The translations under genes were made by a program, and so were the position numbers. Positions 7,357 through 28,425 of a stretch of 40,990 nucleotides of DNA are shown here, piece by piece. The DNA is from a virus. The notes below the pieces were generated by a model. The model saw only the letters and a program-made list of their open reading frames with translations, searched no databases and was not told the origin of the DNA. Each line of letters starts with the position of its first letter. The first letter of the stretch is position 1. The DNA is taken from IMG/VR virus record IMGVR_UViG_3300045051_000620, positions 1-40,990 of that record; one strand, given 5' to 3'.

Positions 7357-10301
7357 CGCGTCACCAGAACGGCTGTAAGGCGGATGTTCCGGATCACCTG
7401 GACGGCAGCATAGGCGCCAACGCCGCCCGTCACCTGCGTACCCAGCCGGTACTCGAAGTCGTCGTAGAAGCCGGCCAAGGTCCCGCTGTCGGCGTAGACC
7501 CCCCACGCCGCAGCGGTGACGTTCCAGGTCTCGATCGTCTCCCAGGCCGTGAAGGCCCCGCCGAGCTCGCGGCTGCGCCGCTGCAGCGTGACGATCAGGG
7601 TCTGGGCCCCGGTGGCGCGGGCCTCGAAGACGACACCGCGCTGGTAGATCGACCCGCGGTCTGTCGCCCCGAGGTCGAGCGTGGCCCGGATCGTGTAGGT
7701 GTCCGGCGCAAAAAACGGCCCGGTCGCCGCCTCCTGAAGGATGTCGCTGACCGCGCCGACCTGCAGCCAGCCGCGCACGATCAGGTTGTTGAACTCGGCG
7801 CTGCCGCCCTTGGCGATCCGCCAGCCGACAGAGCCCGCGACCCAGTTGTCCGACTGGATCGCGCCGCTGATCTTGGTGTTCGTGACGACGCCGTCGTCCA
7901 GTTGCGCCGTCGCGGTGATGATGCCCGAGGCGGCCATCTTGGGGCCCGTCACCTCGCCGTCGACGATCAGGTTGCGCGCCGCGCGCCGGGCCAGCCGCGG
8001 CCCGCCGAAGCGGGCGTTCTCGGTCCCGCCGCCAATCCTGCGCAGGCGGAAGCGGAACCACTTCTCCTCCTTGCCGGTCAGGATGTTCAGCTCGTGCCGG
8101 ACCGTGCTTGCGCTGTCCGTCCGCGAGCCGATCGTCAGGCTGCGGGTCATCGTGATGACGCCCGCGGCATCGGCCTGCCCGAACTCGACCAGGGCGACGG
8201 CCGTCCCGCCCCCGGCCACGCCCGAGGACATCGAGGCCATCACGCTCGCCTCGTAATGCGCGACGGGCTGGCAGCGGAACCAGGTGCTCTGCAGGGCGCC
8301 GGTGCCCGCCTGCGGCAGGATGCGGACAAGCCTGAGGCCGCATTCGTCGATGTCGGTCCCGGCGAACTGGGCCGGCGCGTCCAGGGCGCTTGGCGTCCAG
8401 ATGCCCGCGCGCTGCAGGTCATAGTCGGGAAAGAGGTTCGACGGATCGGCCTCGGCCACCCCCAGCGTCGAGGCGGGCAGCCAGGCCGTCCAGGTCGTGG
8501 CCCAGCGCGCCACCAGCCGCGCCCGGACCTGGTAATCCGCCCAGGGCAGGACGCCCGCGCTGACATTGCGCGCGCCGTCCTCGACCCGGGTGGTCGACCC
8601 GCTCAGCGCGACGGCCGTCTTGCCGGCGATGCGGACCTGCCAGGCGATGCCCTCGACCCCGTCGAGCTCGCTTCCGTCCCAGGTCAGCCGTAGCGCGGGC
8701 TGGCGGCCGTTGTCGTCGGCGTCCTCGATCAGGATGCCGCTGACGGCGAAGGACGGCACCGTCTGCGCCGGCGGCCGCACGCGCCGGGGTCGGCCGACGG
8801 CCGAGGGCAGCTCGTCGGAGGCCGTCCAGTCATAGTCGGACGGGTCGCTCTCGCGCAGCGCCAGCATCGGCAGGAGCGTCCGGACCGGCTCGGTCACCGA
8901 CCCGACCTCGAAGGCCTTGGCGACATAGCCGTTGGCCGGCGAGGTCCAGCTGACGGTGTCGAGCGGCTCGACCACGATCGCGCGCGGTCCCAGCGGCACG
9001 GCGTGGCGGCGGAAGCGGCGCTCGTCGCGGATGTAGGCGCGCATCAGGCGCTGGACCTGCACCTTGTGGGGCACCGCGTCGAACTGCAGGCTCGCGACCA
9101 GCCGCCGGCCGCCGTCCTCGGCCTCCCAGGTGGCGTTGGTGCGGGGCGGCGCCTCCGCCGGCTCCCACAGGCTCTCCGGATCGGGATAGGTGGCCGTGAC
9201 GCCGTTGAAGGTCCGGTCGAAGCCCGGATGCGGGTCGAACTCCGCGCCTTTCGTGACCAGCGTGTCGGCATCGTCGAAGAAGAAGACCGGCAGGCCCGGC
9301 CCGCCGACGCGCAGCTTCAGGACGCCGCCGATGTCCGCGATCGCGCCCGCGCAGCCCTTCAGAAGTTCCTCGATGACCGACGCGGGCTCGTCGCTCGTCA
9401 GCACCTCGAAGGCGGTCCGGTAGCGCGGCTCGCTGCCGCCCGCCTGCAAGGTCACCAGCTGGTCGGCCTTGTTCGCCTCGGCGATCCAGACGGCCGAGGG
9501 CACGTCGGCCGCGGCGTAGCTGCCGCCCCAGACCTGGCCGGGCGCGACCGTGACCCCGCGGGCGATGTTGTAGACCTGCACGACCGGGTTCGACGACGGC
9601 TCCCAGGTGGCGCGGTTCGCCCAGCGGTGCGGCCCCGCCCCGCCGTTCGTGCTGTCCTTCCGCGGGTCGTAGAGCGGGATGCCGCCCAGGACGAAGCGCA
9701 GCTTCGGGAAGCCCTGAAAGAGCTCGCGATTGTAGCGCATCGTGACGATCACGTAGCAGATGCCGGTGCCGACCATGTCCGACGTCCAGGGCCGCTCGGG
9801 GTAGCTGCCGTAGCGCGACAGGAGCATCGGGTCGGCGGCCGTCTGCGTGCCGTCGTAGTACTTGACGAAAAGGTAGTCGGTGAACGGCCCCTGCGCCCGC
9901 ATGCCGTAGTCGGGCTCGGGCGTGCCGCCGAAGGTCACGACCTCGCCGTCGCAGATCACCTCGTCGAGCGTCATGCCGGGGATGTCGCCCAGCTCGATCA
10001 CGTAGGTCAGGTAGGCGTTCGGCGTCTTGCCGACCTTGCCGTGCGACATCGCCGGGCAGACCGCGACGCCGGCCGTCGCGAACCGGCCGAGGATGAAGCT
10101 CGCGGGCTGCGTGCCGCCCGTCAGCGTGTTGCCGACGCGGATGCCGGGCGCGCGCGGCTTCGGTGTCAGCGCCCGCTGCAGGGCCGACAGCGCGACCGAG
10201 ACGAGCAGCCGGCCGAAGAAGTTCTGCGTCAGGAACGTGCCGACGGCGGTCGCGGCGAAGGCGCTGGCGGCGGCAGAGATCGCGGCGGCGATGGCAGGCA
10301 T
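7353..10301 (-). CDS. Tail tip / host-specificity protein (lambda J-like)
   Basis: At 982 residues this is the largest gene. The first 45 residues are a hydrophobic alanine-rich helix (AAAISAAASAFAATAVGTFL), a common start for tip-complex proteins. Residues about 50-480 form the hub-like part (PASFILGRFATAG; LTYVIELGDIPGM; PERPWTSDMVGTGICYVIV). Middle regions (about 510-620) look like fibronectin-III-type strands. The C-terminal part carries the LDDGVVTNTKISGAIQSDN pattern frequent near the ends of J-like proteins. It would close the tail tube and contact the receptor. Start ATG 10301 overlaps the peptidase gene's stop (TGATG). Functionally it matches the last tip gene of the rhodobacterial gene transfer agent. 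Confidence 0.85.
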   Translation of the reverse strand: MPAIAAAISAAASAFAATAVGTFLTQNFFGRLLVSVALSALQRALTPKPRAPGIRVGNTLTGGTQPASFILGRFATAGVAVCPAMSHGKVGKTPNAYLTYVIELGDIPGMTLDEVICDGEVVTFGGTPEPDYGMRAQGPFTDYLFVKYYDGTQTAADPMLLSRYGSYPERPWTSDMVGTGICYVIVTMRYNRELFQGFPKLRFVLGGIPLYDPRKDSTNGGAGPHRWANRATWEPSSNPVVQVYNIARGVTVAPGQVWGGSYAAADVPSAVWIAEANKADQLVTLQAGGSEPRYRTAFEVLTSDEPASVIEELLKGCAGAIADIGGVLKLRVGGPGLPVFFFDDADTLVTKGAEFDPHPGFDRTFNGVTATYPDPESLWEPAEAPPRTNATWEAEDGGRRLVASLQFDAVPHKVQVQRLMRAYIRDERRFRRHAVPLGPRAIVVEPLDTVSWTSPANGYVAKAFEVGSVTEPVRTLLPMLALRESDPSDYDWTASDELPSAVGRPRRVRPPAQTVPSFAVSGILIEDADDNGRQPALRLTWDGSELDGVEGIAWQVRIAGKTAVALSGSTTRVEDGARNVSAGVLPWADYQVRARLVARWATTWTAWLPASTLGVAEADPSNLFPDYDLQRAGIWTPSALDAPAQFAGTDIDECGLRLVRILPQAGTGALQSTWFRCQPVAHYEASVMASMSSGVAGGGTAVALVEFGQADAAGVITMTRSLTIGSRTDSASTVRHELNILTGKEEKWFRFRLRRIGGGTENARFGGPRLARRAARNLIVDGEVTGPKMAASGIITATAQLDDGVVTNTKISGAIQSDNWVAGSVGWRIAKGGSAEFNNLIVRGWLQVGAVSDILQEAATGPFFAPDTYTIRATLDLGATDRGSIYQRGVVFEARATGAQTLIVTLQRRSRELGGAFTAWETIETWNVTAAAWGVYADSGTLAGFYDDFEYRLGTQVTGGVGAYAAVQVIRNIRLTAVLVTR

Positions 10302-11391: not shown

Positions 11392-12053
11392 CAGACCCTC
11401 AGGCTCTGTTTCCAGCGAAAGCCCGCGCCTTCGGCGATGCCGCGCCGGAAGCTGCCCTTGTCGACCGACCCGGGCAGGACCACGGCCTTGCACCAGGCGC
11501 GGCTCAGCTCGACCGCAGCGCCGCTCGCCCAGCCCGGCCGCACCGCCGGGATCACCTCGAAAAGCCCGCTCGCGCCCCCGGCGGTGGCGGTCACGGACTC
11601 CATGATCCGGTGCAGCGCGCGCCGGGCCGGGTTCGATCCGTAGGTGAAGGACAGGTAATCGCCCCGCCGCAGCAGGTAGTTGGCGGGCAGCGCCGTCAGG
11701 CTGATCTCGCGGAAGTCGCCCGAGACGGTGCCGATCACCGGGCTCGCCGCGGCAATGACGCTGCCTGTCGGGTCGGAGGACGGAAAGGGCCGGCGCGTGT
11801 CGAAGCACTGGAAGGACCGGCCGGGTTCGCGCAGAAGGTCGATCATCGGCTCGATCTGCGCCCATTCGGCCGGGCCCATCTTGCCCAGCCGCACCTCGCC
11901 CTCCCAGAGCCGGGTCCCGAGGCTTGCCATCAGCAGCTCGCCGCCGGCGGTCTCGTCGACCTGCATCGCCTCGCCCAGGTCGAAGACCGCCTCGCTGACC
12001 GGCAGGACGCTCATGAACTGCGACCGGAAGAGCGGGAAGGTGAAGACGCTCAT
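11391..12053 (-). CDS. Distal tail protein candidate
   Basis: The product has 220 residues and a mainly beta composition. It includes VFDLGEAMQVDETAGGELL, SLGTRLWEGEVRLGKM and ALPANYLLRRGDYLSFTYG, the type of sequence seen in proteins encoded directly after tape measures in siphophages. No catalytic motif is present. Start ATG 12053 overlaps the tape measure stop by four bases. It most likely forms the ring at the distal end of the tail tube (functional counterpart of gene transfer agent gp12). The assignment rests on order and general appearance. Confidence 0.65.
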   Translation of the reverse strand: MSVFTFPLFRSQFMSVLPVSEAVFDLGEAMQVDETAGGELLMASLGTRLWEGEVRLGKMGPAEWAQIEPMIDLLREPGRSFQCFDTRRPFPSSDPTGSVIAAASPVIGTVSGDFREISLTALPANYLLRRGDYLSFTYGSNPARRALHRIMESVTATAGGASGLFEVIPAVRPGWASGAAVELSRAWCKAVVLPGSVDKGSFRRGIAEGAGFRWKQSLRV

Positions 12054-18333: not shown

Positions 18334-18768
18334 TCAGGTGGCGCGCGTCAGGTGCTCGTCGAAGCGGACCCAGACGCCTTGCGCGTCGACCGCCTCGATG
18401 ATCCCGGCCGGGCTGCGGGTGTTGGTGCCGTTGGTCTTCGCCACCTGGTCGTCATCGACGATCCAGGCGCGCAGGCCCACGTCGGCCTGGACGATCAGGT
18501 CGCCCGCGGTGGAGTTGCGGAACCTCGCCGTGACGCCGTGGCGATAGCGGACCGTCTGCGCGCCGTTCGCGCCAGCGGTGTTGTCGACGGGCTGTTCGGC
18601 CACGCCGACGCCGACGCAGCCGGTGGCGGTCGCGCCCTTGACGATGAAGCCCGCGGCGTTGCGCATCAGAAGCGCCCCGGCGAAGATGCGGGTGCCCGCG
18701 CCGAGCGGCTGCTCGCGCATCTCGCCCTGCCAGGCGGCGGTGTTCCGGTCTGCGGTCAGGACGGTCAT
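18334..18768 (-). CDS. Head decoration/stabilisation protein candidate
   Basis: The 144-residue protein lies between protease/scaffold and major capsid genes, where decoration proteins (or Mu gp33) are found. It has GAGTRIFAGALLMRNAAGFIV and RFRNSTAGDLIVQADVGLRAWIVDDDQVA, with the beta-rich pattern of DUF2190/gpD-like capsid-stabilising proteins. Start ATG 18768 overlaps the protease stop (ATGA). The exact family is uncertain; the virion role is likely from position. Confidence 0.75.
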   Translation of the reverse strand: MTVLTADRNTAAWQGEMREQPLGAGTRIFAGALLMRNAAGFIVKGATATGCVGVGVAEQPVDNTAGANGAQTVRYRHGVTARFRNSTAGDLIVQADVGLRAWIVDDDQVAKTNGTNTRSPAGIIEAVDAQGVWVRFDEHLTRAT

Positions 18769-19799
18769 GCGAGGACCCCTTTCTCGGCGTTGAGGGTTTT
18801 CAGGTAGTCGGCCTGCGAGATGCCGAGCGCGGCCGCGACCTGCGCCTGCTCGGCGTTCAGCGACAGGATCGCGCCGTCCGCGCCGACCTTTGCGGGGGCC
18901 GGCAGCGCGCCGGGGGCGATGACCGGCATCGCGCCGATCTCCTTCTCGACCGCGGCAGCATCGGCCATGTGGCGCGCGATGTAGTGGTCGCGCAGGGGCT
19001 TGACTCCGACGTGGCCGCGCTTGATCGCGCCGTCGACGAAGGCCGCGGCACGATCGCGCGCGCCCTCGGTCTGCAGCGCCACGAGCTTGGCGCTGACGTC
19101 CTTGAGTTCTGCCTGCAGCGCGGTCATCGCCGTGTCGCCGGCCTTCGCGGCCTTTGCCGCGGCGACGATCGCCGCGCTGTCGCCGTTCGCGACGCCGAGC
19201 GCGGTCCCGACTTCGGCCAGCGCCGATTGCGCGGCCGTCGCGGTCGCCATCTTGCCGATCGCGGTCAGGATGTCCTCCTCGCCCGCGCCGTCCGCCAGGC
19301 CGAGGGCCTTGGCAATCTTGTCCCAGCTCATGCCGGCATTCTCCGTGTTGAGGGCAGTGATCCCGACCAGGTTCGGGCGGTTCGTCAGACTGGCGCCGAT
19401 GATCTGGATGATCTTCTTGTCGGCCAGGTGCCGGATGACCGGCGACAGCCGCCGGTAGGCACGCTCGGCCAGGAGCGCCCGGCCGGCGGCGTTCCATTCG
19501 ACGCGGCCCCAGATGCCGTCGGCGCGCGCCTGCATTTCCTTGATCCACCCGCGCGCCGGCGCCTCGCGGCCCTGGTTGCCCGGCGCGTCGGTGACATGGT
19601 TCTCGTCGATCAGCAGGCCCTCGGCTTCGGCCATCGACGCCGCGATCACGGCATCGACATCCGGCACGGTGTAGGGCCCGCGCGGATCACGGGTCAGGAC
19701 CTTCCCGCCCTGGATCGGCAGGAGGTGCACCCATTCGGGCGCGTCCGCGTCGGGCAGGCCCTGCGAGGCAAGGGCGATGATGGCGGGGGTGCTCGTCAT
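18765..19799 (-). CDS. Prohead protease / scaffold (Mu I-like)
   Basis: The 344-residue protein follows Mu gpI: an N-terminal protease half (EWVHLLPIQGG at about 21-31, IDENHVTDAPG at about 64-74, with H67) and an alanine-rich helical C-terminal half that would act as internal scaffold (Z-like). Conserved gpI-type features are IKEMQARADGIWGRVEWNAAG and YRRLSPVIRH. The C-terminus is degraded or cleaved during head maturation in this family. Start ATG 19799 was chosen because homology-like sequence begins there. No ribosome site precedes it, and the predicted transcription start is almost at the ATG, so the message may be leaderless. Confidence 0.9.
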   Translation of the reverse strand: MTSTPAIIALASQGLPDADAPEWVHLLPIQGGKVLTRDPRGPYTVPDVDAVIAASMAEAEGLLIDENHVTDAPGNQGREAPARGWIKEMQARADGIWGRVEWNAAGRALLAERAYRRLSPVIRHLADKKIIQIIGASLTNRPNLVGITALNTENAGMSWDKIAKALGLADGAGEEDILTAIGKMATATAAQSALAEVGTALGVANGDSAAIVAAAKAAKAGDTAMTALQAELKDVSAKLVALQTEGARDRAAAFVDGAIKRGHVGVKPLRDHYIARHMADAAAVEKEIGAMPVIAPGALPAPAKVGADGAILSLNAEQAQVAAALGISQADYLKTLNAEKGVLA

Positions 19800-19802
19800 G
19801 CC

Positions 19803-19853
19803 GGCAGAATGGCCGACAGCGCGGGGCCGGTCGCCCCTGACACCTGTCAGGGG
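19803..19853 (-). promoter_or_regulatory. Predicted late promoter PI with 20-bp activator palindrome
   Basis: A perfect palindrome except for its two central bases, CCCCTGACACCTGTCAGGGG, lies at 19834..19853. Reading on the minus strand, CGCTGTCGGCCAT at 19821..19809 follows with an extended -10-like CATTCT. The same block with identical spacing stands before the lysis genes at 28378..28425. If the start is seven bases after the -10, the palindrome is centred at about -43, as known for Mu Mor/C sites. The rest of the gap up to 20051 shows no gene. Confidence 0.7.
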
Positions 19854-20051
19854 TGGTTTCGGGCAGGAAGGGCGGTTTCGGGGAAGGCCGCGCCAGCGCG
19901 CACCAGCGGGCCGCTGGCGGGCGCTTCGCCTGAAAGCCTGTCTTGCCCGTCCCGATCCGTCAAGCCGGTCCAACCCCCTTCAATTTTAGCGCACGGGGCA
20001 TCCGCGTGGCGTGGGTCGGGATCAGGGGGCCGGAACAGACGTCGGCGACGG

Positions 20052-20528
20052 TCAGCCGGGCGCGAAAGCAGCGCCGATCCCGTCTGCGAGGAGCTGCAGG
20101 ATTGCCGTCTCGTCCTCGTCCGAGAAGCCGAGGAAGGGCCGCGCCGGGATGTTGCCCCAGAGATGCGGGAAGGCAGCCTTCGTGCCGCCGAACTGCATCA
20201 TCGCGGCGTAGACGCGGTTCGATCCGACCGCGGCGAAGTCCGGCCCGCTCTCGGGGAAGATCTGGCTGTTGAGCTGGCCCGAGGGACCGAAGAGCGGACG
20301 GTTGTCGACACGGTTCGACTTTCGCGCGCCGTAGCTTGCCAGCGTCACCGGCGACTTCGGCGCCCAGGGCGCGCCCGTCGGCCCCTTGCCTGTCGGAAAG
20401 CGGCGCTTGGTCGAGACGACCAGGTACTCGGCGATCTGCGCCATCAAGGGCGCCGTCTCGTCCAGTGCCTCGGCCACCCGCTGAAGCGCCGGGCCGACAC
20501 TGTCCGAGGTGAGTTCGATCGTGATCAT
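20052..20528 (-). CDS. Virion morphogenesis protein (Mu gpG-like)
   Basis: The 158-residue protein matches the phage virion morphogenesis family (gpG/gpS type): LTSDSVGPALQRVAEALDETAPL near the start, then KRRFPTGKGPTGAPWAPKSP at about 41-60, PLFGPSGQLNSQI at about 78-90, AMMQFGGT and IPARPFLGFSDED. It acts at head completion or tail attachment. A 10-bp gap separates it from 20539..20880. It is the last gene of the first late block, before the PI control gap. Confidence 0.9.
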   Translation of the reverse strand: MITIELTSDSVGPALQRVAEALDETAPLMAQIAEYLVVSTKRRFPTGKGPTGAPWAPKSPVTLASYGARKSNRVDNRPLFGPSGQLNSQIFPESGPDFAAVGSNRVYAAMMQFGGTKAAFPHLWGNIPARPFLGFSDEDETAILQLLADGIGAAFAPG

Positions 20529-20538
20529 GGCGGCGCCT

Positions 20539-20880
20539 TCAGTTGAAGGTGCCGGGCTCGGTCGGATCAGGCCTGGGCGCGTCGTAACGTCCGAGCTCGC
20601 CCTCCAGCCGGTAGTTCCGGCTGAGCAGTAGCCAGGCGAGCGACTGCGGGTCGTTCAGGGGCGGCTTGGCGGGGTAGGACTGCTGCCAGGGAAAGAAGAT
20701 GCGTCCGCTGAAGCGCGCCTGTGCCTGCTGCAGGCCGCGCACGAAGGACGATGCCTGTTCCGGGCCTTCGATCTCGACGTTGTCGATGGCGCCCGTCGCG
20801 AAGTCGATGTCGAAGGCCACACGCTCCCGAAGGCGCGGGTTCCTGTTGATCGCAATGACATGCGTTGTCGACATCATCAT
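20539..20880 (-). CDS. Unknown small protein paired with the F-like head protein
   Basis: The product is up to 113 residues; three successive ATGs (20880, 20877, 20874) follow a GGAAGAGAGG ribosome site, so the exact start is open. No family is recognised. It has VAFDIDFATGAIDNVEIEGP and a C-terminal LAWLLLSRNYRLEGELGRYDAP. It is inserted between the F-like and G-like genes, which are adjacent in Mu, and directly follows the part of F that carries a metallopeptidase motif. Its DNA is less GC-rich than neighbours. A cognate partner or immunity protein for that domain is possible but unproven. Confidence 0.7.
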   Translation of the reverse strand: MMMSTTHVIAINRNPRLRERVAFDIDFATGAIDNVEIEGPEQASSFVRGLQQAQARFSGRIFFPWQQSYPAKPPLNDPQSLAWLLLSRNYRLEGELGRYDAPRPDPTEPGTFN

Positions 20881-22391
20881 CCTCTCTTCCAGTAGAAAAG
20901 GACGCCGAGCACGAATTCAAGCATCTCCCGGTCCTCCGTCAGCATCTTTCTGAAGGCGTGGGGGTGCTCCTCGTCCATCCCGAGCAGGGGATCGAAGCCC
21001 ATGGTCATGACTTCCATCGCGCCATACCCGCGATACTCACGGCCCTGGTAGGGGTTGTAGTACCCGTCCGGACGGGCGACCTCATCCGACTCGCTGATCA
21101 GGACAAGCGGATCGCCGCGGGTCCGGCTCTCGTGGAGGTCGAGGAACAATCGGTTCAGATCGGGCAGCGCGAACTGCAGGTGGTGCACGTACTCGTGCAA
21201 CGCAGAGCCCCTGTCGACACGCATCTCCGGCGGTCGGCCGTCGCCGCCGGGCCGATAACTGCCTCGCCGCTCCGAGACGATCACCCTGACAGGCATCTCG
21301 TTGCCGGCCCGGACCCAGTCTGCCGGCAGCAGGCGCGCCACATCCGCCATCAAAGCCCGCCCGTCCGGGCGCGTCTCGACCGTCCGGATGCCCAGCGTTC
21401 CGACCTCCCGTGCACGACCGAGCGCCGCGCGGGATCGGTCTCTCAGGATCGCCGCGACCTCTTCGACGTATCCTTGCGCCAGAACCTCGCCAAGGCTGAG
21501 GCCGCGAAACAGTGGCAGTTCGCCGACCGGCGTCGGGAAGTCCTGCCGCAGCAGCCGGTCGAGGACCGCCTTGCCCGTCGTCGCGACCGACCGCCAGGAG
21601 GTCAGGTCTTCGGGCGGAGGAGGCAGGACGGACAGATCGGCTGTCCGGACCAGTGCGGCCGCCACGGGCTCGGGCAGCTTCTCCGCCTTCTCCCGCGCAA
21701 GCCGCGCGATCTCGTCGGCCGCGCTCGCGCCGGGCGCATAGGCCCAGCCCCGGTCGATCCCCTTCGGCGCGCCGGTGCGTCCGTCGATCGCCTGCCAGCC
21801 GTCGGGAAGCGCCTTGTCCGGATCCCCGCCCAGGATGCGCGCCGCCGTCAGCGACCGCGCGCCGCTCACATAGCAGCTGCAGCCCCATCCGTTCGGCGGG
21901 GCATGCGTCGCCCAGAACGGATGGTCGGCCGGCAGCACGAGCCCGTCCCAGGCAAGGTGCTGCAGGCGTGGCTCGCGGCTGTTGCCGTGGAAGTAGATGA
22001 CGTACGGAAACTTCGCGTCCGTGATCTGGGCCCAGCGGCCCGCGGCATAGGACGTCGCCATGTTAGTGCGGTAGATGACCCGCGTCCGCCAGGCTTCCCC
22101 GGCCTTCGTGCCCTCGCCCGTCCAGCCGTGCCAGCCGTGCTTCGCGACGATCGACCGGAAGTCGGCGCGGAATTGCTCCAGCGTGCCGCCGGCGGCGATT
22201 GCCTTCTCGACGGCCGCGGCGAGGTCGGCAAGCAGGTCGGCCTTCATCGCGCCGGCGACCATGAACGCGCGGTCGTGCTCGGCCTGCCAGAGGTCGGTCC
22301 ACTTCGCTGTCCCGACGAGGTTGCGCAGCCGCAGCCGGAAGGCCGCGACCTGGGCCGCGAAGGGCATGTTGAAGACCCCTTCAAGGGTCAC
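20877..22391 (-). CDS. Head morphogenesis protein (Mu gpF-like) with C-terminal zincin-like domain
   Basis: The protein has 504 residues. Residues 1 to about 240 are the SPP1 gp7/Mu F minor head domain, with VIYRTNMATSYAAGRW (105-120) and the family signature PNGWGCSCYV (166-175). Residues about 280-504 are an addition not found in Mu F. It contains SALHEYVHHLQ with HEYVH at 399-403, an HExxH zinc-peptidase motif, and a downstream GYGAMEVMTMG that could supply a third ligand. Toxin-type C-terminal domains on F-like proteins are known in other phages, so this may be a virion-delivered effector. DNA for this part is less GC-rich than the first half. It overlaps the portal gene by four bases. 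Confidence 0.85.
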   Translation of the reverse strand: MTLEGVFNMPFAAQVAAFRLRLRNLVGTAKWTDLWQAEHDRAFMVAGAMKADLLADLAAAVEKAIAAGGTLEQFRADFRSIVAKHGWHGWTGEGTKAGEAWRTRVIYRTNMATSYAAGRWAQITDAKFPYVIYFHGNSREPRLQHLAWDGLVLPADHPFWATHAPPNGWGCSCYVSGARSLTAARILGGDPDKALPDGWQAIDGRTGAPKGIDRGWAYAPGASAADEIARLAREKAEKLPEPVAAALVRTADLSVLPPPPEDLTSWRSVATTGKAVLDRLLRQDFPTPVGELPLFRGLSLGEVLAQGYVEEVAAILRDRSRAALGRAREVGTLGIRTVETRPDGRALMADVARLLPADWVRAGNEMPVRVIVSERRGSYRPGGDGRPPEMRVDRGSALHEYVHHLQFALPDLNRLFLDLHESRTRGDPLVLISESDEVARPDGYYNPYQGREYRGYGAMEVMTMGFDPLLGMDEEHPHAFRKMLTEDREMLEFVLGVLFYWKRG

Positions 22392-23998
22392 TTCGCATCC
22401 TCGTCGGCGGCGACCCGTCCCCCGGCATGGGCGGCCACAAGGCCCATGCCGATGATCGCGGCCAGGTCATCGACAGACAGGTCGGGGAACGCCGCCAGCA
22501 GCATCTCGCGGAACTCGGGCAGCGAGCCTGCGCGTCCGAGCATCGCCTCGACCGTTGCGACCAGCGCCTCCATCGCGGGCGCGGCCTCGTTCGCCAGGCG
22601 GTCCGCCAGGATGTCCTCGGGCGCACGGGGGCCGGGTCGCTCCTCGGATTGCAGCGCAGGGTCCCGGCGATCGTCTGGCCGACCATCATCCGCTTCCTCG
22701 CCTTCTTGCGGCCTGTCGTCGGGCGGCGGATCGCCTGGCAAGCCCGACGGTGCCGCTCGCTGCGGACGCAGGAGCTTTGCCCCCGCCTTCGCCTGCGGCA
22801 GGCCAAACTTCGCCAGCATCGCGTCGTGCGACACCTCGAGGCCCCGATCGATCAGCGGGGCCAGCGCGGCCGACAGCTGTGCCAGATCCTCCTGCTCCGG
22901 CCGGGCGATGCGCAGCCGTGGATAAGCCTTCTGCGGCCCGTGGTTCAGCTGCACCCAGGGATAGATCAGGTCGCGGTTCAGGACAGCCGCCAGGGCGCGG
23001 GCGTCGGACCGCTCGAGGTCCTCCTGGACCTCGCGATGCTCCTTGCCGGAGCCAAGCCCGCCGGTCAGCGCGTCGGTGGTGCCGGTCTGGCCGAGGACCG
23101 CCTTCGACAGCTGCTGGTCCAGCCAGTCCGCCCGCTCCTTGTAGAGCTGGTGCGACGACCCGACGTTCGCGGCCTCGACGAACTCGATCATCATGCTCTC
23201 GGGCACGATCGCCGCCATGTCGCCGGCGATGTTGGTCACCGCCCGCAGAAGCGTCCGCTTGTCCTGTTCCGATGCGCCGGGCTGGAACTTGCCGACCCTC
23301 AGGGGATGCCCGTAGGTCTGCGTGAAGATCGCCCAGTCGCGCTCGGTGAACTTCTTGAAGAGATAGGTCCAGGCTGCCACCCGGCTCAGGCCCGACCGCA
23401 GCGGCAGGCCCGACTTGGCGCTGATCTGCGCCCAGATGAACTTGCCTGGCTCCAGCGGCACTTCCTGCCCCGCGTCGTCCAGTCTCAGCGGCGTCCGCAG
23501 GTCGTGGCGGGCGAACCGGAACCAGCGCGGGTCGCGCAGCTCGAGACGCGCCGGCTGGTGCTGGCCCATGCTGGTGTCCCAGATGATCTCGGTGGCCGAA
23601 TAGCCCTTGGGGATGCAGTCGAGGATATGGAACAACTCGGCCGTCAGCTCGTCCCGGGTCAGCCAGGCCCGGATTTCTTCGGCGATGGCCTCGTCCGCCG
23701 GGGCCTCGGACGCCGCCTCGACCGTCACCTCGATCTGGCTGACCGCGCGCCGGCGCGTGCCGATCACCGACAAGTAATGCGGGTCGCGCTCCTCGATCGT
23801 CTCGGCCAGTTCCATGTAGGAGATCGGATCGCCCGCATCCGCGCCCTTCAGGATGCTGCCCAGCCGCGCCGGCGTCAGACCGTCGGCCGGGTAGCCGGTG
23901 GTCGGGCTGCGCACGCCGCTGACCGAAGCGGCCGAGACCTCCTGCACCAGCACCTTGCGTTCGATCGGCCGCCCCATGTGGTCGAGGATTTTCGTCAC
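22388..23998 (-). CDS. Portal protein (Mu gp29-like, DUF935)
   Basis: The 536-residue protein shows clear DUF935 features: ILDHMGRPIER at the start, LAETIEERDPHYLSVIGTRRRAV at about 64-86, IPKGYSATEIIWD, YGHPLRVGKF and LLRAVTNIAGDMAAIVPESM. It forms the dodecameric DNA entry channel. An acidic, proline-rich linker (PPPDDRPQEGEEADD) near residue 430 precedes a helical C-terminal domain. It overlaps both terminase and F-like genes by four bases. Confidence 0.93.
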   Translation of the reverse strand: MTKILDHMGRPIERKVLVQEVSAASVSGVRSPTTGYPADGLTPARLGSILKGADAGDPISYMELAETIEERDPHYLSVIGTRRRAVSQIEVTVEAASEAPADEAIAEEIRAWLTRDELTAELFHILDCIPKGYSATEIIWDTSMGQHQPARLELRDPRWFRFARHDLRTPLRLDDAGQEVPLEPGKFIWAQISAKSGLPLRSGLSRVAAWTYLFKKFTERDWAIFTQTYGHPLRVGKFQPGASEQDKRTLLRAVTNIAGDMAAIVPESMMIEFVEAANVGSSHQLYKERADWLDQQLSKAVLGQTGTTDALTGGLGSGKEHREVQEDLERSDARALAAVLNRDLIYPWVQLNHGPQKAYPRLRIARPEQEDLAQLSAALAPLIDRGLEVSHDAMLAKFGLPQAKAGAKLLRPQRAAPSGLPGDPPPDDRPQEGEEADDGRPDDRRDPALQSEERPGPRAPEDILADRLANEAAPAMEALVATVEAMLGRAGSLPEFREMLLAAFPDLSVDDLAAIIGMGLVAAHAGGRVAADEDAK

Positions 23999-25488
23999 CA
24001 GAGGCCCCCCTTCATCCCGAAGTCGTCGGTCAGCGCGAAATCCTCGCGCACCGGCGCGTCGTCATCCTGCGGCCGCATCGACAGCCTTCCTGCTTCCCGC
24101 CCCGTCGGCGGGGGGACGGCACGATACTCATAGGGCTGATACCCGCTTGCCGCCGCACTCACCGCCAGGGCCAATGCCCAGAACCGGTCGGCGTGGCCGT
24201 CCGTGTCGCCGTCGGCGACCAGCCGCGGGATGCCCGTCGCGCCGACGACCTTGCGGATCGCGTGCAGGTCAGACCGCAGCACCACGTCGCCGGCGGGCAG
24301 CCGCAGCTTGCGGTCCTCCATCGCCTGCTTCAGCGCGGTCGCGAGGTCGAGCTTGGCCGGTGCGCTGAAGATCACGCCCTCGACGGCATAGGTCCCGTGC
24401 CGGGCGCGCGCGTCCTCGACCACCTTCTCGCCCATGCCCGTCTGGTCGATCCGGTTGCGGATGATGCGGTACTTGCGGTGCATCTCGGCGCGCACCTGGT
24501 CCTGCTCGGCGAAGGTGATCCGCCGTCGCGCCACGATCTCGCGCACCCAGAGGACGTCGCCGACCTCCTCGACCACGACCGCGACATAGAGGTCCTTCCG
24601 CGCCGCGATATCCTCGCCCAGGTAGCACGGCCCCCCCTGGTAGGCGCCGGGCCGGCCGGCCAGCGGGTGCTCGCAGGCGGCGATCAGGTCGTAGTCGAGC
24701 CAGGCGCTGGCGGCATCGAGCCAGGCGAGTTCGAACTCCTGCGCCCAGGCGTCCTCGTCCTGCAGCCCCGCGCGCAGCTCGGCCACGTTGACGTCCAGGC
24801 CCTCGCGCACCGCCTGGTGGATGTCGACGACGTGCTTCGACCAGACGCCGCTCTCGTCGGTCATCAGCTCGTAGAACTTGTTGCCCTTGCCGTTGGGCGT
24901 CGAGATCACCCTGATCTTGTGCCCGCCGCGCGCGGCGACCGGATAGGCGCTGCCCCAGATGCGCCGGCTGTCGGCGTGGAAGGCGAACTCGTCCAGGATC
25001 AGGTTGCCGCCGAAGCCCCGCGCGGCGTCGGGGCTGGCCGACAGGGCGACGACGCGGCTGCCGCCCGGGAAGCGGACCTCCTGCGTCTTGTAGGTCGCCT
25101 CCGGCACATGGATGACCTGCGTCAGCCCGCCCGCCGAGATCTCGCGCTCGTGCGCCGCGACCCGGAACTCGCCTTCCTCGAAGACGGGTTGCGGCCGCCG
25201 CTGAAGGCCCTTCAGCACGGCGTAGAAGGCCTTGATCATCGGCTTCAGCGCATCGTCCATGGCCTCCTTCGCGGTCGCCTCGGACCGCGACAGGATCGTC
25301 CATCGGGCGCGCCGCCCCTCGATCTCGGCCTGGATGCAGTCGTCGGCCGCCTCGCCGTTGGTGGCGAAGGTCTTGCCGCCGCGCCGGGTCATCATCCCGA
25401 TCTTGAAGCGCGCCTTGTCCTCGATCCACCGCCGCTGGTACGGCAGGAACCGGATGATCGGGTTGCCGTCAGCGTCAGAAGGGGCCAT
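23995..25488 (-). CDS. Terminase large subunit (Mu gp28-like)
   Basis: The 497-residue protein has the adenine-binding/Walker A region FKIGMMTRRGGKTFAT (28-43, deviant P-loop RRGGKT) and Walker B LILDEFAF (163-170) of the packaging ATPase. ISTPNGKGNKFYEL is the coupling motif. The C-terminal RNase-H-like nuclease part includes YLGEDIAARKDLYVAVVVEE. It powers headful packaging from the phage left end. Start ATG 25488 lies inside the end of 25475..25690 (14-base overlap). Confidence 0.93.
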   Translation of the reverse strand: MAPSDADGNPIIRFLPYQRRWIEDKARFKIGMMTRRGGKTFATNGEAADDCIQAEIEGRRARWTILSRSEATAKEAMDDALKPMIKAFYAVLKGLQRRPQPVFEEGEFRVAAHEREISAGGLTQVIHVPEATYKTQEVRFPGGSRVVALSASPDAARGFGGNLILDEFAFHADSRRIWGSAYPVAARGGHKIRVISTPNGKGNKFYELMTDESGVWSKHVVDIHQAVREGLDVNVAELRAGLQDEDAWAQEFELAWLDAASAWLDYDLIAACEHPLAGRPGAYQGGPCYLGEDIAARKDLYVAVVVEEVGDVLWVREIVARRRITFAEQDQVRAEMHRKYRIIRNRIDQTGMGEKVVEDARARHGTYAVEGVIFSAPAKLDLATALKQAMEDRKLRLPAGDVVLRSDLHAIRKVVGATGIPRLVADGDTDGHADRFWALALAVSAAASGYQPYEYRAVPPPTGREAGRLSMRPQDDDAPVREDFALTDDFGMKGGLW

Positions 25489-25690
25489 GGCGATGCCGCT
25501 CCGCGAATACGCGCGGGGCCTCGGCGCCCGCCTCCAGCGCGGCGAGCCGCCCGACCAGCTCCTCGATCGTGCGGGCGCCGCGCTCGAGCGATCGGACCAG
25601 CGGGTCGCACGTCTCGCCCTGGATGTGCCGGCCGCGGTGCGCCTTTGCCATGGCGCGCAGGTCATTCGCGATCTGCAGCGGCGTGGCCAT
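25475..25690 (-). CDS. Small helical packaging-region protein
   Basis: The 71-residue product (MATPLQIANDLRAMAKAH...) has two probable helices, the second being RTIEELVGRLAALEAG. It lies between the two terminase subunit genes and overlaps both (TGATG upstream, 14 bases downstream). No family was recognised. An accessory packaging or structural role is possible from position only. Confidence 0.7.
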   Translation of the reverse strand: MATPLQIANDLRAMAKAHRGRHIQGETCDPLVRSLERGARTIEELVGRLAALEAGAEAPRVFAERHRHGPF

Positions 25691-26229
25691 CACGCGAACC
25701 CCATGATCCGCCGCGCCTCGGCGCGGAAGTCCTCGGGCACTTCGCCCGCCTCGACCGCCTGGTCGACCTTGGCCGCCAGCTCCTTCCGGTAGGTCTTGAC
25801 GATCGCATCCCGCAGCGCGGCCGACCGGATCAGGTTGTTCAGCGCGGTCGTCAGGTCCTTCATGCCCTTCGGGTCGGGCAGCTGGCCCTCGTCCTGGTGC
25901 ATCTGCTTCTGCAGCTGCCACTGGATCGACACCAGCTGCTGGAACAGCCCCTTCGTGACCTTCGCCTCGTCGTCCAGATCGGCCTCGTGCATGAAGGCCC
26001 GGATTTCCGACTGGATCGCCCGCTCGCGTTCGGCATAGGCCTTGAAGTCCTGACCGAAGGCATGCAGCGCCGACTTCTGGATGCGCAGCTCGGTCCCCAT
26101 CTCCGCGAGCTTCCAGTTCAGCTCCTCGGCGATCTCGTCATAGCCGGCAAAGCCGCGCGCCTTCAGCGCGGCCTCGAGCCAGCGCCGGACCTCCCCGGGC
26201 AGAAGGTCGACCTTGCGGGGCGCGGGCAT
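25690..26229 (-). CDS. Terminase small subunit candidate (Mu gp27-like, DUF3486)
   Basis: The 179-residue protein starts MPAPRKVDLLPGEVRRWLEAALKARGF (about residues 1-27), with YDEIAEELNWKLAEMGTELRIQKSALH forming a helix-turn-helix-like segment. This is the DUF3486/gp27 pattern, and the family is placed as terminase small subunit in Mu-like phages. Later parts are long amphipathic helices (FQQLVSIQWQLQKQMHQDEG). It would recognise phage DNA and present it to the large subunit. Confidence 0.88.
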   Translation of the reverse strand: MPAPRKVDLLPGEVRRWLEAALKARGFAGYDEIAEELNWKLAEMGTELRIQKSALHAFGQDFKAYAERERAIQSEIRAFMHEADLDDEAKVTKGLFQQLVSIQWQLQKQMHQDEGQLPDPKGMKDLTTALNNLIRSAALRDAIVKTYRKELAAKVDQAVEAGEVPEDFRAEARRIMGFA

Positions 26230-26528
26230 CAGTCCAGCGGTCCCGGGCGCCTGATCTGCGGATGCCGCGCGAGACCACGGGCGATCTCGACCCCGGCCTG
26301 CGTGGCCGTCACCAGGACAAGGTCGTCATGCTCGCGGAGCTTCACGAAGCCCTGCTCTTCAAGCCATGCAAGGTCGGTCAGAACCTGCGACCGCGTCGAC
26401 GTGATCTTTAGGCCGTTCAGCACGTCCTGAAGGATCGAGGCATTGCCGGAATACTCCGGGATCGCCTCCAGGTGCCGCAGGATCGCCAGCCGCCGGTGCT
26501 CGCGCAGGGTGGTCTCCGCGTAGCTCAT
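26229..26528 (-). CDS. Mu gp26-like winged-helix protein
   Basis: The 99-residue protein starts MSYAETTLREHRRLAILRHLE, then has STRSQVLTDLAWLEEQGFVKL (44-64) and a wing DDLVLVTATQAGVEIARG. This ArsR-like winged-helix pattern is typical of the gp26-type protein found between gp25 and gp27 in Mu-like phages. DNA binding is likely; its target is unknown. It overlaps neighbours by one and four bases. Confidence 0.8.
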   Translation of the reverse strand: MSYAETTLREHRRLAILRHLEAIPEYSGNASILQDVLNGLKITSTRSQVLTDLAWLEEQGFVKLREHDDLVLVTATQAGVEIARGLARHPQIRRPGPLD

Positions 26529-26872
26529 TTGCGATCATCCATCAGGTGCTCCTCGTGGCGGCTGACCATGGCCTCGATCCGCTTCATGATCTCGGACTGG
26601 CCTTCGAGCTTCGCCATCAGCGCCCGCATGTCGCCGCGCATCTCGGACATGCCGAGGTCGAGCTGGTGAAAGTCCTGGCGGGCGGGCAGGCTCTGGATGG
26701 TCATTTCCAGCACCGCAAGCCGCCGGTCGAGGGACGTCATCCGTTCGGCGCCCGCCTTGAACAGGTTGTCGACACCGGCGTCCCGCGTCCGCCACCAGGT
26801 GAAGAGCAGCGCGAGCCCGGTCAGCAGGAACGGCAGCGTGACCGTGAAGTCGAAGACGAACGGCTTGATCAC
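26525..26872 (-). CDS. Mu gp25-like membrane protein (DUF2730)
   Basis: The 115-residue product begins with GTG at 26872, overlapping the previous stop as GTGA. It has one N-terminal membrane segment (about residues 7-25, VTLPFLLTGLALLFTWW). A coiled coil follows (TSLDRRLAVLEMTIQSL and later MRALMAKLEGQSEIMKRIEAMV). This is the DUF2730 layout. In Mu-like phages it neighbours lysis genes and may act in lysis or DNA packaging; function is not established. Confidence 0.8.
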   Translation of the reverse strand: MIKPFVFDFTVTLPFLLTGLALLFTWWRTRDAGVDNLFKAGAERMTSLDRRLAVLEMTIQSLPARQDFHQLDLGMSEMRGDMRALMAKLEGQSEIMKRIEAMVSRHEEHLMDDRK

Positions 26873-27462
26873 GTCGGATCGCCCTCCGCGGGCAGGTTCT
26901 CGGCCAGCGCCTGGAAGCCCTCGCCGCTCGCGACAAGGCAGGTCAGGCCGCCCGCGTCCGACACCGTGATCGTCCAGGTGCCGGTCGCGGCCGAGGCCCA
27001 GACCTCCATCACCGTGTGGTTCGCACCTACCCCCAAGCCCTGGCGCGTCTCGCCGTAGCGGTCGGCCAGAAGCTTCGTCACCTGGTCGCGCGGCCCGCAT
27101 TGCGCCGCCTGGGCGGGATCGGGCGGCAGAAGGAAGAGCCCGGCCGCCAGGACGACCGCCGTGCCGGACGCACGGTGCCAGGGCCACATCAGGCGGTAGC
27201 GCGGCGCGCGCCGCTCTGCCCAGGCCCAGATGCCAAGGACGAAGGGCAGCACCATCTGCCAGGCGGCGACCACGCTGTCGCCGGTGGCCTGCACGGCCGC
27301 GGCGTCGCAGCCAAGGCCCATCTCGCAGGTCACGGCATAGAGGTCGATGCCGACCACGTTCAGCGCAACTGCGGCCAGCGCCAGAAGCTGGACCCAGAAG
27401 CTGCGCGCCTGCCAGACGGGCAGTTCCGGCAGGGCGGTGTTGTTCGGGGGCGCGATGCGCAT
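26869..27462 (-). CDS. Holin-like membrane protein fused to a secreted-type domain
   Basis: The 197-residue product has AGGAGAAG before ATG 27462. Two membrane segments (about 23-40 and 66-82) resemble a small holin of Mu-like phages. Residues 92-120 read like a complete Sec signal peptide, with MWPWHR, a hydrophobic core and PAQAA before QCGPRD. A periplasmic domain follows with two cysteines and the segments GANHTVMEVWASAATGTWTI and AGGLTCLVASGEGF. An internal start at M92 (27189) would give a 106-residue secreted protein, but no clear ribosome site is seen there. It lies directly after the endolysin. Confidence 0.7.
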   Translation of the reverse strand: MRIAPPNNTALPELPVWQARSFWVQLLALAAVALNVVGIDLYAVTCEMGLGCDAAAVQATGDSVVAAWQMVLPFVLGIWAWAERRAPRYRLMWPWHRASGTAVVLAAGLFLLPPDPAQAAQCGPRDQVTKLLADRYGETRQGLGVGANHTVMEVWASAATGTWTITVSDAGGLTCLVASGEGFQALAENLPAEGDPT

Positions 27463-27472
27463 CGGCTTCTCC

Positions 27473-28351
27473 TCAGGTAACGGATTGCGTGTAGCGGCCG
27501 ACGATCCAGCCCTCGCGGCCATCGAAGATGACCTTCAGCCAGTCCCGGCCGTCGAAGGTGCCGCCCCGCAGCACCGGCACCTCGGCGCCGTTCGGGATGG
27601 TTGCGATCACGTTGGGATTGAACGACGGCCAGCGCCGCATGTTCAGGCTCGAACCGGGTGCGGCGATCCGGACATAGGCATGTTCGCCGACGCCGACGCC
27701 GGGCGGCAACTTCGGAACAAGCTCCGCGATTGGCGCGGACAGCGCGTCGGCCTCCCCGTCCGACGGATCGTCGCGCCCAAGGATGCGGGCGCGGATCGCC
27801 TCCATCCGGAACAGCGGGTTCGTGTCGGCCTTGCGGCCGGGGCTGACGTACCAGTGCCCGCGAATGTCCTTCAGGGTCCGGATGCTGTCGAAGAGGCAGC
27901 GGAGCAGTTTCTCCACGGCGTCGATCTGCGCCTCGGGGTAGGGCATCCAGGCGCCGGCCCCGTGTTCGGGCGTCGTGATCTCGACCACGCCGTGGAAGGT
28001 CTTGCCGAACCAGGCCTGGCCAACGCCGCTTCCGACCGGCACCAGCCGGCCGGGGTTCTCGATCTCGATGCCGATCGAGAAGTCGTTGACGCCGGACCGG
28101 CCATGGTAGGCCGACTCCCCCGCATGCCCGGCCCGGCGGTTCGTGGGCACGAGCTGCGTGATGAACCCGTCGATCGCCACCACGAAATGCGCGCTCGCGC
28201 CCTTGCCCGTGGCCAGCCACTCCACGGACGACCCGTTGCCCAGATGACCGGCGGTGTCGTGCAGGATCACGACCTCGGGGACGATCACCCCGCCGGTCAG
28301 GCGCGCGGCGCGGAAGGGCGCGCCGATCAGGCGGTGGTTCTTCAGCTGCAT
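27473..28351 (-). CDS. Endolysin: N-acetylmuramoyl-L-alanine amidase with SH3 domain
   Basis: The 292-residue protein cleaves the amide between muramic acid and the peptide stem. The Amidase_2 fold shows VVILHDTAG (H31), AHFVVAIDG (H55), FSIGIEIENPG (91-101) and GHWYVSPGRKADTNP (H166, D176), giving the zinc ligands. Residues about 225-292 are a bacterial SH3 domain (YVRIAAPGSSLNMRRWPSFN, then WLKVIFDGREGWIVGRY) for wall binding. No signal peptide is present, so release needs a holin. GGGAG precedes ATG 28351. It is the first gene after the predicted lysis promoter. Confidence 0.93.
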   Translation of the reverse strand: MQLKNHRLIGAPFRAARLTGGVIVPEVVILHDTAGHLGNGSSVEWLATGKGASAHFVVAIDGFITQLVPTNRRAGHAGESAYHGRSGVNDFSIGIEIENPGRLVPVGSGVGQAWFGKTFHGVVEITTPEHGAGAWMPYPEAQIDAVEKLLRCLFDSIRTLKDIRGHWYVSPGRKADTNPLFRMEAIRARILGRDDPSDGEADALSAPIAELVPKLPPGVGVGEHAYVRIAAPGSSLNMRRWPSFNPNVIATIPNGAEVPVLRGGTFDGRDWLKVIFDGREGWIVGRYTQSVT

Positions 28352-28377
28352 GCGCTGCGCTCCCGGCTCACGTCCGG

Positions 28378-28425
28378 AATATGGCCGACAGCGGCGGCCG
28401 CATCGCCCCTGACAGGCGTCAGGGG
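28378..28425 (-). promoter_or_regulatory. Predicted lysis promoter (Plys) with 20-bp activator palindrome
   Basis: CCCCTGACAGGCGTCAGGGG at 28406..28425 has 8-bp arms around four bases. Twenty-five bases away is ATGGCCGACAGCG (28381..28393), identical to the copy at 19809..19821. On the minus strand this gives an extended -10-like CATATT at 28383..28378 and a start near 28371, about 20 bases before the endolysin ATG. The site is directly downstream of the Mor/C-like gene, as Plys follows C in Mu. Confidence 0.75.

Follow-up and report, generated by a model that had tools for sequence, protein, structure and literature searches.

The window analysed here (the whole 40,990-nt stretch, IMG/VR virus record IMGVR_UViG_3300045051_000620) contains two matching palindromic modules, which we interpret, with a probability of about 0.85, as activator-read late promoters, the one before the protease gene giving a leaderless mRNA, in a Mu-like siphophage with relatives among rhodobacterial phages. 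In relatives the same two places carry palindromes whose letters change along with the recognition helix of a Mor/C-like activator.

Two matching modules in the window

The 45-bp modules at 28381-28425 and 19809-19853 share 36 of 45 bases in a pairwise comparison, in agreement with the original prediction, which had given these positions and nine variable bases. Over the whole window the pattern CCCCTGACN4GTCAGGGGN12CGCTGTCGGCCAT has just these two matches, both on the minus strand and without mismatches, and none of 100 shuffled sequences contained the full module. The palindrome CCCCTGAC-N4-GTCAGGGG, searched with up to 3 mismatches, was found only at 19834-19853 and 28406-28425, but it should be noted that the palindrome alone is not rare, as at least two copies occurred in 13 of the 100 shuffles when 3 mismatches were allowed. 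The window scored 24.5 in the shared-stretch test, against a maximum of 13.0 among 40 control windows, and 31.0 in the joint palindrome test, against 24.8 among 30 control windows. A sequence search of viral_contigs did not return the exact module.

On the minus strand each module runs from palindrome through spacer and -10 box to the gene (Table 1). One operator sits right after the activator gene and one ahead of the protease gene, a promoter placement as in Mor/C systems, and the genes that follow are those expected originally, lysis genes (endolysin ATG 28351) and protease (ATG 19799). The reading as late promoters is supported by the relatives described below, while the -10-like box had to be corrected to CATATT and CATTCT, with the modules read on the minus strand.

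Table 1. Features of the two modules and the neighbouring genes (window coordinates).
Feature	Position	Strand	Remarks
Mor/C-like late activator, 131 aa	28476..28871	-	HTH ...DERTVSRWRAE; proposed reader of both operators
Palindromic operator, lysis promoter (Plys-like)	28406..28425	-	CCCCTGAC-GCCT-GTCAGGGG; centre between 28415/28416
13-mer CGCTGTCGGCCAT, copy 1	28381..28393	-	overlaps -10; same in both modules, no family feature
Predicted -10 box CATATT, lysis promoter	28378..28383	-	+33 to +38 from operator centre; family consensus C33 A34 T38
Predicted 20-nt leader, endolysin mRNA	28352..28371	-	start at +45 by position, inferred
Endolysin (amidase) gene behind lysis promoter	27473..28351	-	phrog_1794, E=8e-39; ATG 28351
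Palindromic operator, protease promoter (PI-like)	19834..19853	-	CCCCTGAC-AGGT-GTCAGGGG; centre between 19843/19844
13-mer CGCTGTCGGCCAT, copy 2	19809..19821	-	same in both modules, no family feature
Predicted -10 box CATTCT, protease promoter	19806..19811	-	-12 to -7 of protease ATG
Head maturation protease gene (Mu I-like)	18765..19799	-	phrog_328, E=1.3e-61 (match obtained with the longer frame 18765-19973); ATG 19799 = +45 from operator centre

The Mor/C-like activator

Residues 15-126 of the activator match the PHROG 836 'late transcriptional activator' family (phrog_836, E=1.8e-18), and its profile aligns with Mu C/Mor over 79 columns (hhalign probability 96.9, E=1.8e-10) that take in its middle part and C-terminal HTH. 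With the same profile, 1rr7 (E=0.0017) and 9l0x (E=0.03) are found, ranked below several unrelated HTH proteins. As the protein stays below the gathering score of Pfam PF08765 Mor (11.7 versus 24.9 bits), we call it a remote relative and not a Pfam Mor member; the RcapMu homologue passes with 38.7 bits, and the RC1 homologue is not listed for Mor. The predicted model (pLDDT 89.7) had no Foldseek match at E<=0.001, and in VIA-align the rows mainly cover the HTH, with no whole-fold match and without Mor (1rr7) among the matches listed. Sequence comparison thus makes the window activator a remote Mor/C relative.

Twin palindromes in related phages

The window activator used alone as query found no relative in viral_contigs or phages, hence the protease was taken as anchor for finding loci. 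This gave 61 loci in which a Mor/C-like gene precedes a protease gene, some of them near-duplicates, each compared with 21-30 control windows of its own. In 46 of them the stretches after the activator and before the protease share a palindrome that beats every control, and in most of the 61 the first palindrome lies close behind the activator stop codon. RC1/RS1, ThpS-P1 and PeaS-P1 each have their own palindrome pair at the two places. The remaining 15 did not beat all controls; among these are L062 and L094, with the activators closest to that of the window (48 and 47%), and RhkS_P1, which has a shared stretch in the twin test yet failed the joint palindrome test.

The original prediction had proposed a search of rhodobacterial Mu-like phages for the same palindrome. 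There the position and geometry are conserved and the letters are not: the palindrome varies between phages, with an even spacer and a -10 'CAnnnT' starting 33 bp from the centre being kept. Profiles were made from 41 loci, leaving out the 15 above (with L089 and L095 as duplicates among them), four near-duplicates (L036, L040, L068 and L119) and one with an odd spacer (L029); the centre is doubtful in four of the 41 (L084, L085, L087 and L101). Identity between twins is 0.85-1.0 at -8 to -3 and +3 to +11, arm values that are inflated by the selection on twin identity, and near background outside; it is asymmetric, being raised to +14 downstream and upstream only to -11. Over the 82 sites the -10 consensus is C33 (.66), A34 (.77) and T38 (.65), and the 41 lysis sites taken by themselves give an identical one. 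The 13-bp run CGCTGTCGGCCAT is peculiar to the window phage, the next longest identical run among the 41 pairs being 5, and of its letters only those of the -10 are conserved in relatives. Conservation between the modules had been equated with function, which for this 13-mer the present evidence does not justify.

Further operator copies with at most 1 mismatch in the 14 arm positions were absent from all 41 loci, which are mostly stretches of about 20 kb or shorter and not whole phages; copies with 2 mismatches are scattered. For a hold-out sample 21 genomes were searched, in which 12 activator loci overlapped a protease locus; L066, without an activator in the orientation tried, was dropped and read separately. 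Eight of the 11 remaining phages beat all 36 of their own controls (L045, L082 and L099 failed), and all eight have ATG or GTG at +45/46, counted irrespective of frame.

The operator follows the activator helix

Similarity of the activator HTH correlates with similarity of the operator (r=0.423, p=0.0005, the lowest value attainable with 2000 permutations), and r rises to 0.540 without the four misregistered sites. The correlation is 0.390 given the protease and 0.232 given the protease and the activator N-terminus. Given the HTH, the protease has no significant effect (0.067, p=0.21), and with HTH and protease both accounted for, the activator N-terminus retains a small correlation (r=0.115, p=0.0085). 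It should be noted that the activator (HTH and N-terminal part) and the protease were the only proteins compared with the operator. Most likely, both switches are bound by the phage's own late-gene activator, and we propose that lineages have changed the recognition helix and both operators together.

The specificity was originally expected to be new. Relative to Mu this expectation is correct, but POA1180 and the loci L059, L066, L071, L073 and L077 have the half-site GTCAGG as well.

The protease start codon and a predicted leaderless mRNA

A point absent from the earlier note is that the protease start codon falls where the transcript is predicted to begin. An in-frame ATG or GTG lies 44-48 bp from the palindrome centre in 78 of 103 protease loci, and in 39 of the 41 profile loci. 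Counting ATG only, 74 of 101 fall at +44 to +48, versus 4-18 in 17 control distance bins. In the other 25 of the 103 there is no palindrome of 5/6 pairs at the expected distance, several weaker ones being seen by eye.

The Shine-Dalgarno core was found in none of the 78 proteases with a start at the expected distance; in the smaller set it precedes 0 of 39 proteases versus 38 of 40 next genes. Since the start codon lies at the expected transcript start and the core is lacking, we predict that the protease mRNA is leaderless and begins with its start codon, with RcapMu, whose annotated ATG lies at +62 behind AAGGA, as an exception. In the +45 group A stands at -11 in 13 of 13 phages. The -10 register is less clear in the +46 group of 20 phages, with A at -12 in.75 and at -11 in.40. 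ThpS-P1 (vB_ThpS-P1), a phage of Thiobacimonas profunda JLT2016 that mitomycin C induces (PMC5488378), likewise has its protease ATG at +46.

A missing Shine-Dalgarno core is in itself not rare in these genomes. The core precedes 17 of 40 first ORFs on the lysis side and, by a noisy count, 165 of 383 other long ATG ORFs.

Alternative explanations

The protease mRNA might instead carry a leader, with transcription starting farther upstream or translation at a downstream codon. In a number of phages another ATG follows in frame some 10 codons on, and RcapMu has both a Shine-Dalgarno site and a later ATG. Among the 40 phages whose start codon is where it is expected (RcapMu had none to examine), however, the alternative starts within 33 codons carry a Shine-Dalgarno core in just 4, and 6 have no alternative start in that range; the one alternative in the window is a GTG at +114 without the core. 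The invariant A at -11 in the +45 group also speaks against a leader, hence we regard this explanation as unlikely. It is considerably less probable still that the palindromes are read by some regulator other than the Mor/C-like protein, be it a repressor, a different phage protein or a factor of the host. Such phages do have further annotated DNA-binding proteins, and before correction the operator likewise correlates with the N-terminal part of the activator (r=0.379) and with the protease (r=0.189), but the co-variation with the HTH survives correction for both, and operator and activator classes agree by eye in the hold-out phages.

The location of the first site closely behind the activator stop codon in most loci would also suit an RNA hairpin, and the palindromes could then terminate transcription behind the activator gene and ahead of the protease gene. 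Some have T-rich tails, as in RcapMu (GGGGGTTTT), and at least four T are present in offsets 9-18 at 14 of 41 lysis and 20 of 41 protease sites, hence some may also terminate, and a double role as promoter site and terminator is possible in some phages. Against terminators as the general explanation, which we consider very improbable, TTTT is found in these offsets at just 9 of 41 lysis and 12 of 41 protease sites, no terminator-like site was found at either window module, and terminators need neither equal arms at two places nor a fixed -10 distance nor co-variation with an activator. The 13-bp identical run beyond the palindrome does suggest that in the window phage part of the module was recently copied or converted. 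That the second module is nothing but a recent duplicate without function is nevertheless hardly credible, as paired sites occur at the same two genes in distant phages, and in relatives it is the arms that the two sites have in common, the flanks, and often the loops, being different.

Proposed mechanism and implications

The activator-read promoter model builds on sites, geometry, co-variation, start-codon distance and Shine-Dalgarno absence, all of them properties of sequence. The activator, encoded just upstream of the lysis gene, would bind the palindrome as a dimer, covering the -35 position at each promoter, and would let the host polymerase start at the weak CAnnnT -10 box. The lysis promoter would drive an endolysin-first unit, with a short leader, that presumably continues to terminase and portal, and the second promoter a unit of protease and major capsid genes. 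With the protease start codon at the transcript start, the mRNA would be translated as a leaderless message without a Shine-Dalgarno site. On transcripts reading through from the lysis promoter, protease translation would then start inefficiently, and with the start codon set by an activator-dependent promoter, protease translation would be tied to initiation there. Leaderless mRNAs are reportedly translated about as efficiently as leadered ones in Caulobacter, itself an alphaproteobacterium (PMC4117421), which makes the leaderless claim plausible.

Further, we think it somewhat more probable than the opposite that Mu-like phages of Alphaproteobacteria, and perhaps of Pseudomonas, in general make their capsid operon from a leaderless mRNA with a promoter-set start codon and have a readable activator code. 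As examples of such a code we propose xRTVxR with GTCAGG/GTCCGG, SDVxVR with TTGCGGG, and TExGVxxLF with GCGGGCAT or GCGGCCAT; the window activator is of the xRTVxR type, and SDVSVR is the form in RC1. If true, the code would let new late-gene specificities be predicted, and a single pair of sites would grow into a set of naturally occurring activator/operator pairs, all of one fixed geometry, usable for working out how Mor/C-type proteins choose their DNA. It would also mean that phages routinely express a structural operon from leaderless mRNA.

Comparison with known phages

In Mu, with C acting at Plys and PI and Mor at Pm, the activator gene adjoins lys and promoters precede lys and the protease gene I, as in the window. 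The Mor dyad is centred at -43.5 and overlaps the -35 (PMC4287176); the dyad in the window lies at about -44.5 if the -10 is placed at -12 to -7, which fits. A dyad over the -35 at about -44 together with a weak -10 is what a Mor/C-activated promoter should have, and both are present here, given the predicted transcript start. The -10-like place of Mu lys and I is occupied, as judged by eye, by CATCAG and CATGAT, likewise weak. Mu lys and I share mainly TCCCGCACCT, whereas the window palindromes are long. In Mu the ATG of I follows 12 nt after the -10, so that a short leader is expected, unlike in the window, with its start codon at the predicted transcript start. Mu has four late promoters (PMC4461284), the C-dependent ones being lys, I, P and mom; a set of four was not found here, the whole window having two sites. 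On the late-gene strand searched we found one activator per locus and no Mor-then-C cascade, L038 alone having a second, weak match.

A twin search in Mu, D3112, B3, MuM16-2, martha and POA1180, run without control windows, returned just one clear twin of palindromic form, that of POA1180. In MuM16-2 the two stretches agree at 19 of 22 bases and are weakly palindromic, and nothing strong was seen in Mu, B3 and martha. In D3112 both places contain GTTGAACCCCTTCC, and a CACCAT box precedes an ATG, the palindrome being weak (3-base arms by eye); this phage was rejected as support, as the frame from this ATG fails to read into the annotated protease of the deposited record. Pseudomonas phage B3 resembles the window in having a CACTCT box and no Shine-Dalgarno core, with a 7/8-pair palindrome centred 43.5 bp before an ATG that is in frame with the annotated protease; the annotated start lies 30 bases upstream of this ATG, and no twin was present in the one stretch tested before the lysis genes.

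RcapMu and RcWaterboi have the twin palindrome CCCCCGGAC-N4-GTCCGGGGG at both places, RcWaterboi differing by one loop base, and their half-site GTCCGG is related to GTCAGG of the window. Unlike in the window, their annotated protease ATG stands behind a Shine-Dalgarno site, hence their protease mRNAs are probably not leaderless. Ochrobactrum phage POA1180 differs from the window in its annotated tail sheath and baseplate genes and in arms that are one base closer (3-base spacer), but it has the half-site CCTGAC/GTCAGG before both endolysin and protease, and its protease ATG lies 45.0 bp from the centre without a Shine-Dalgarno core, just as in the window.

Probable twin late promoters in the window

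The window spans the entire virus record of 40,990 bases, and all genes under discussion lie on its minus strand. The virus is a Mu-like phage; apart from the genes tabulated below, the PHROGs names found in it are major head protein, portal, terminase, minor head protein and transposase. The original prediction held that a module of palindrome, spacer and -10-like box occurs exactly twice, ahead of the lysis genes and ahead of the protease gene. Both parts were borne out: the full module has 2 occurrences in the window and no match in any of 100 shuffles, and the genes that follow carry the expected names. The lysis-side palindrome is separated from the gene of the Mor/C-like activator by 50 bases, and the second palindrome lies 8.5 kb further along the minus strand.

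Features of the two probable late promoters in the window
Feature	Position	Strand	Remark
Activator gene	28871-28476	-	PHROGs late transcriptional activator
Lysis-side palindrome	28425-28406	-	followed by spacer
-10-like box CATATT	28383-28378	-	before endolysin
Endolysin ATG	28351	-	PHROGs endolysin/amidase
Protease-side palindrome	19853-19834	-	followed by spacer
-10-like box CATTCT	19811-19806	-	before protease
Protease ATG	19799	-	PHROGs head maturation protease

Twin palindromes in related phages

The stretches ahead of endolysin and protease were compared in the seven annotated relatives found (RC1, RS1, ThpS-P1, PeaS-P1, RhkS_P1, RcapMu and RcWaterboi), and protease scans covered 31 viral loci and the best 80 of 226 genome loci. 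Keeping those with an activator-like ORF upstream of the protease gave 61 loci, the window and some near-duplicates included. For most loci, aligning the two stretches without gaps gave a palindrome as best match; it sits a little after the activator stop codon and a short way ahead of the protease, and its letters vary widely between phages. In 46 of the 61 loci, twin identity and palindromy scored jointly came out above all of the locus's own control windows (21 to 30 per locus). The 15 loci that failed to beat all their controls include RhkS_P1, L062 and L094, the latter two being the loci with activators most similar to that of the window. The best centre had an even spacer in 58/61 loci, against a proportion of 0.69 in controls, which the real palindrome itself biases.

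Promoter geometry was derived from 41 non-redundant pairs (82 sites) that passed the joint test, with positions counted in bp from the palindrome centre. Twin identity was at least 0.85 at -8 to -3 and +3 to +11 and was still raised upstream to -11 (0.71-0.76), values inflated by the choice of pairs on identity from -11 to +11. Outside this selected range identity stayed raised downstream to +14 (0.59-0.68) and was near background elsewhere, and a downstream box was found with C at +33 (.66), A at +34 (.77) and T at +38 (.65). At the 41 lysis sites taken alone, where a nearby start codon is uncommon, the same letters gave.68,.78 and.71.

One run is special to the window: CGCTGTCGGCCAT is identical over 13 bases in both modules (19809-19821 and 28381-28393) and absent from the other 40 pairs, where the longest identical run in that stretch is 5. 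No further copy without mismatch exists elsewhere in the window; a one-mismatch copy lies at 10180-10192. Recent copying from one promoter to the other could account for the identity, as could an additional element private to this phage.

A predicted leaderless protease start

An in-frame protease start codon falls at +44 to +48 in 39/41 pairs, and exactly at +45 or +46 in 33, two GTG included. Counted independently of the twin search, a palindrome (at least 5 of 6 pairs) is followed by an in-frame ATG at +44 to +48 in 74 of the 101 loci left after deduplication, against 4 to 18 loci in each of 17 other 5-base distance bins. With GTG allowed, 78 of all 103 loci have a start at the expected distance (40 at +45, 35 at +46), and so do 48 of the 62 loci outside the 41-pair set. 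With positions numbered from the A of the start codon (+1), A stands at -11 in 13/13 of the +45 group and T at -7 in 77%; the register of the +46 group is less sharp.

No Shine-Dalgarno core was found upstream of these protease starts (0/39 in the 41-pair set, 0/78 in the 103-locus set), compared with 38/40 for the next gene in the same phages and 165/383 for other long ATG ORFs, a noisy count. First ORFs on the lysis side begin at +69.5 in the median, with 5/40 at +44 to +48, and 17/40 have the core. Because of this start codon distance without a Shine-Dalgarno core across the comparison loci, a leaderless protease start is a strong positional prediction. RcapMu differs from the pattern, its protease ATG being at +62 with AAGGA before it. 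A natural contrast is L033, the most distant protease among the 31 viral loci (28% identity), with no palindrome at the expected distance upstream of the gene and CAGGAG before an ATG. In two further phages, MuM16-2 of Shewanella and martha of Vibrio, AGGAGGTTGnTATGTAA lies upstream of the gene, shortly ahead of the protease ATG; it forms a strong ribosome site directly joined to a start-stop pair.

Activator helix-turn-helix and operator

Operator similarity followed helix-turn-helix identity among the 41 phages (r=0.423, p=0.0005, the floor of 2000 permutations), where p-values serve as guides, shared ancestry being not fully removed by permutation. The correlation was 0.390 given protease identity and 0.232 (p=0.0005) given protease and the activator N-terminal part; the uncorrected r was 0.540 without four sites of doubtful centre (37 phages). 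Protease identity, with 0.189 (p=0.0075) uncorrected, showed no correlation given the helix-turn-helix (0.067, p=0.21), and the activator N-terminal part retained a small one (0.115, p=0.0085). Nearest helix-turn-helix neighbours, pairs above 80% excluded, had an operator similarity of 0.646 against a mean of 0.429, and exceeded their own median in 30/37. A hold-out comprised 11 phages whose activators came from outside the first set of loci; 8 of them scored above all 36 own controls, and the operators of these 8 agree with helix class as judged by eye.

Two loci (L110 and L108) have both TENGVGKLF and GCCCGCTTCGGCGGGC in common. The window's class combines helix DERTVSRWR with GTCAGGGG; L071/L077 (SERTVRRHR) belong to it by the protease site only, the lysis site being TTCATGG, L066 (TQRTVHRHR) as read on the lysis side, and Ochrobactrum phage POA1180 with its helix HERSAYRAR. 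L130, which overlaps L066, has two tandem CTGAC/GTCAG-type palindromes about 57 bases apart downstream of the activator gene. A Rhodopseudomonas MAG contig (L059) carries the window's half-site at both late sites, and its genome has an activator of the window's class, putatively linked to them. There a different ORF (1234-1998) occupies the usual activator place, and the activator gene is some 10 kb off on the opposite strand, if contig numbers match.

Comparison with known systems

Among the matches listed, with subscription journals mostly outside the scope, neither operator diversity of Mor/C proteins nor leaderless late mRNA of Mu-like phages was the subject of any title or abstract opening. 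Promoter, palindrom- and terminator are all absent from the main text of PMC8601537, as are promoter and terminator from that of PMC5488378. For Pseudomonas Mu-like phages, promoters were predicted by general programs, according to PMC4378225. PDB sequences include solved chains named for Mu Mor (1rr7, 9l0y) and C (9l0x, 9vw8), and the literature matches listed included no paper on these structures.

With the sites and distances as observed, and by analogy to Mu C/Mor (PMC4287176, PMC4461284), an activator dimer would bind the palindrome at each promoter and host polymerase would initiate at the weak -10, giving two transcription units, one of them leaderless. Given such a start, we infer that read-through mRNA from the lysis promoter would serve protease synthesis poorly.

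Outside Alphaproteobacteria, phage B3 has a palindrome 43.5 bp ahead of a protease ATG without Shine-Dalgarno core. The annotation of B3 places the protease start 30 bases before this ATG, which is in frame and shows the palindrome/-10 geometry (about 11858-11888); the annotated start may be misplaced. Mu does not fit the leaderless pattern, having 12 nt between its -10 and the ATG. Taking the box as a -10 hexamer that spans -12 to -7 would put the centre of the palindrome here at about -44.5; the Mor dyad of Mu Pm (PMC4287176) is centred at -43.5 and overlaps the -35, and it is mainly because of this match that we call these Mor/C-type promoters.
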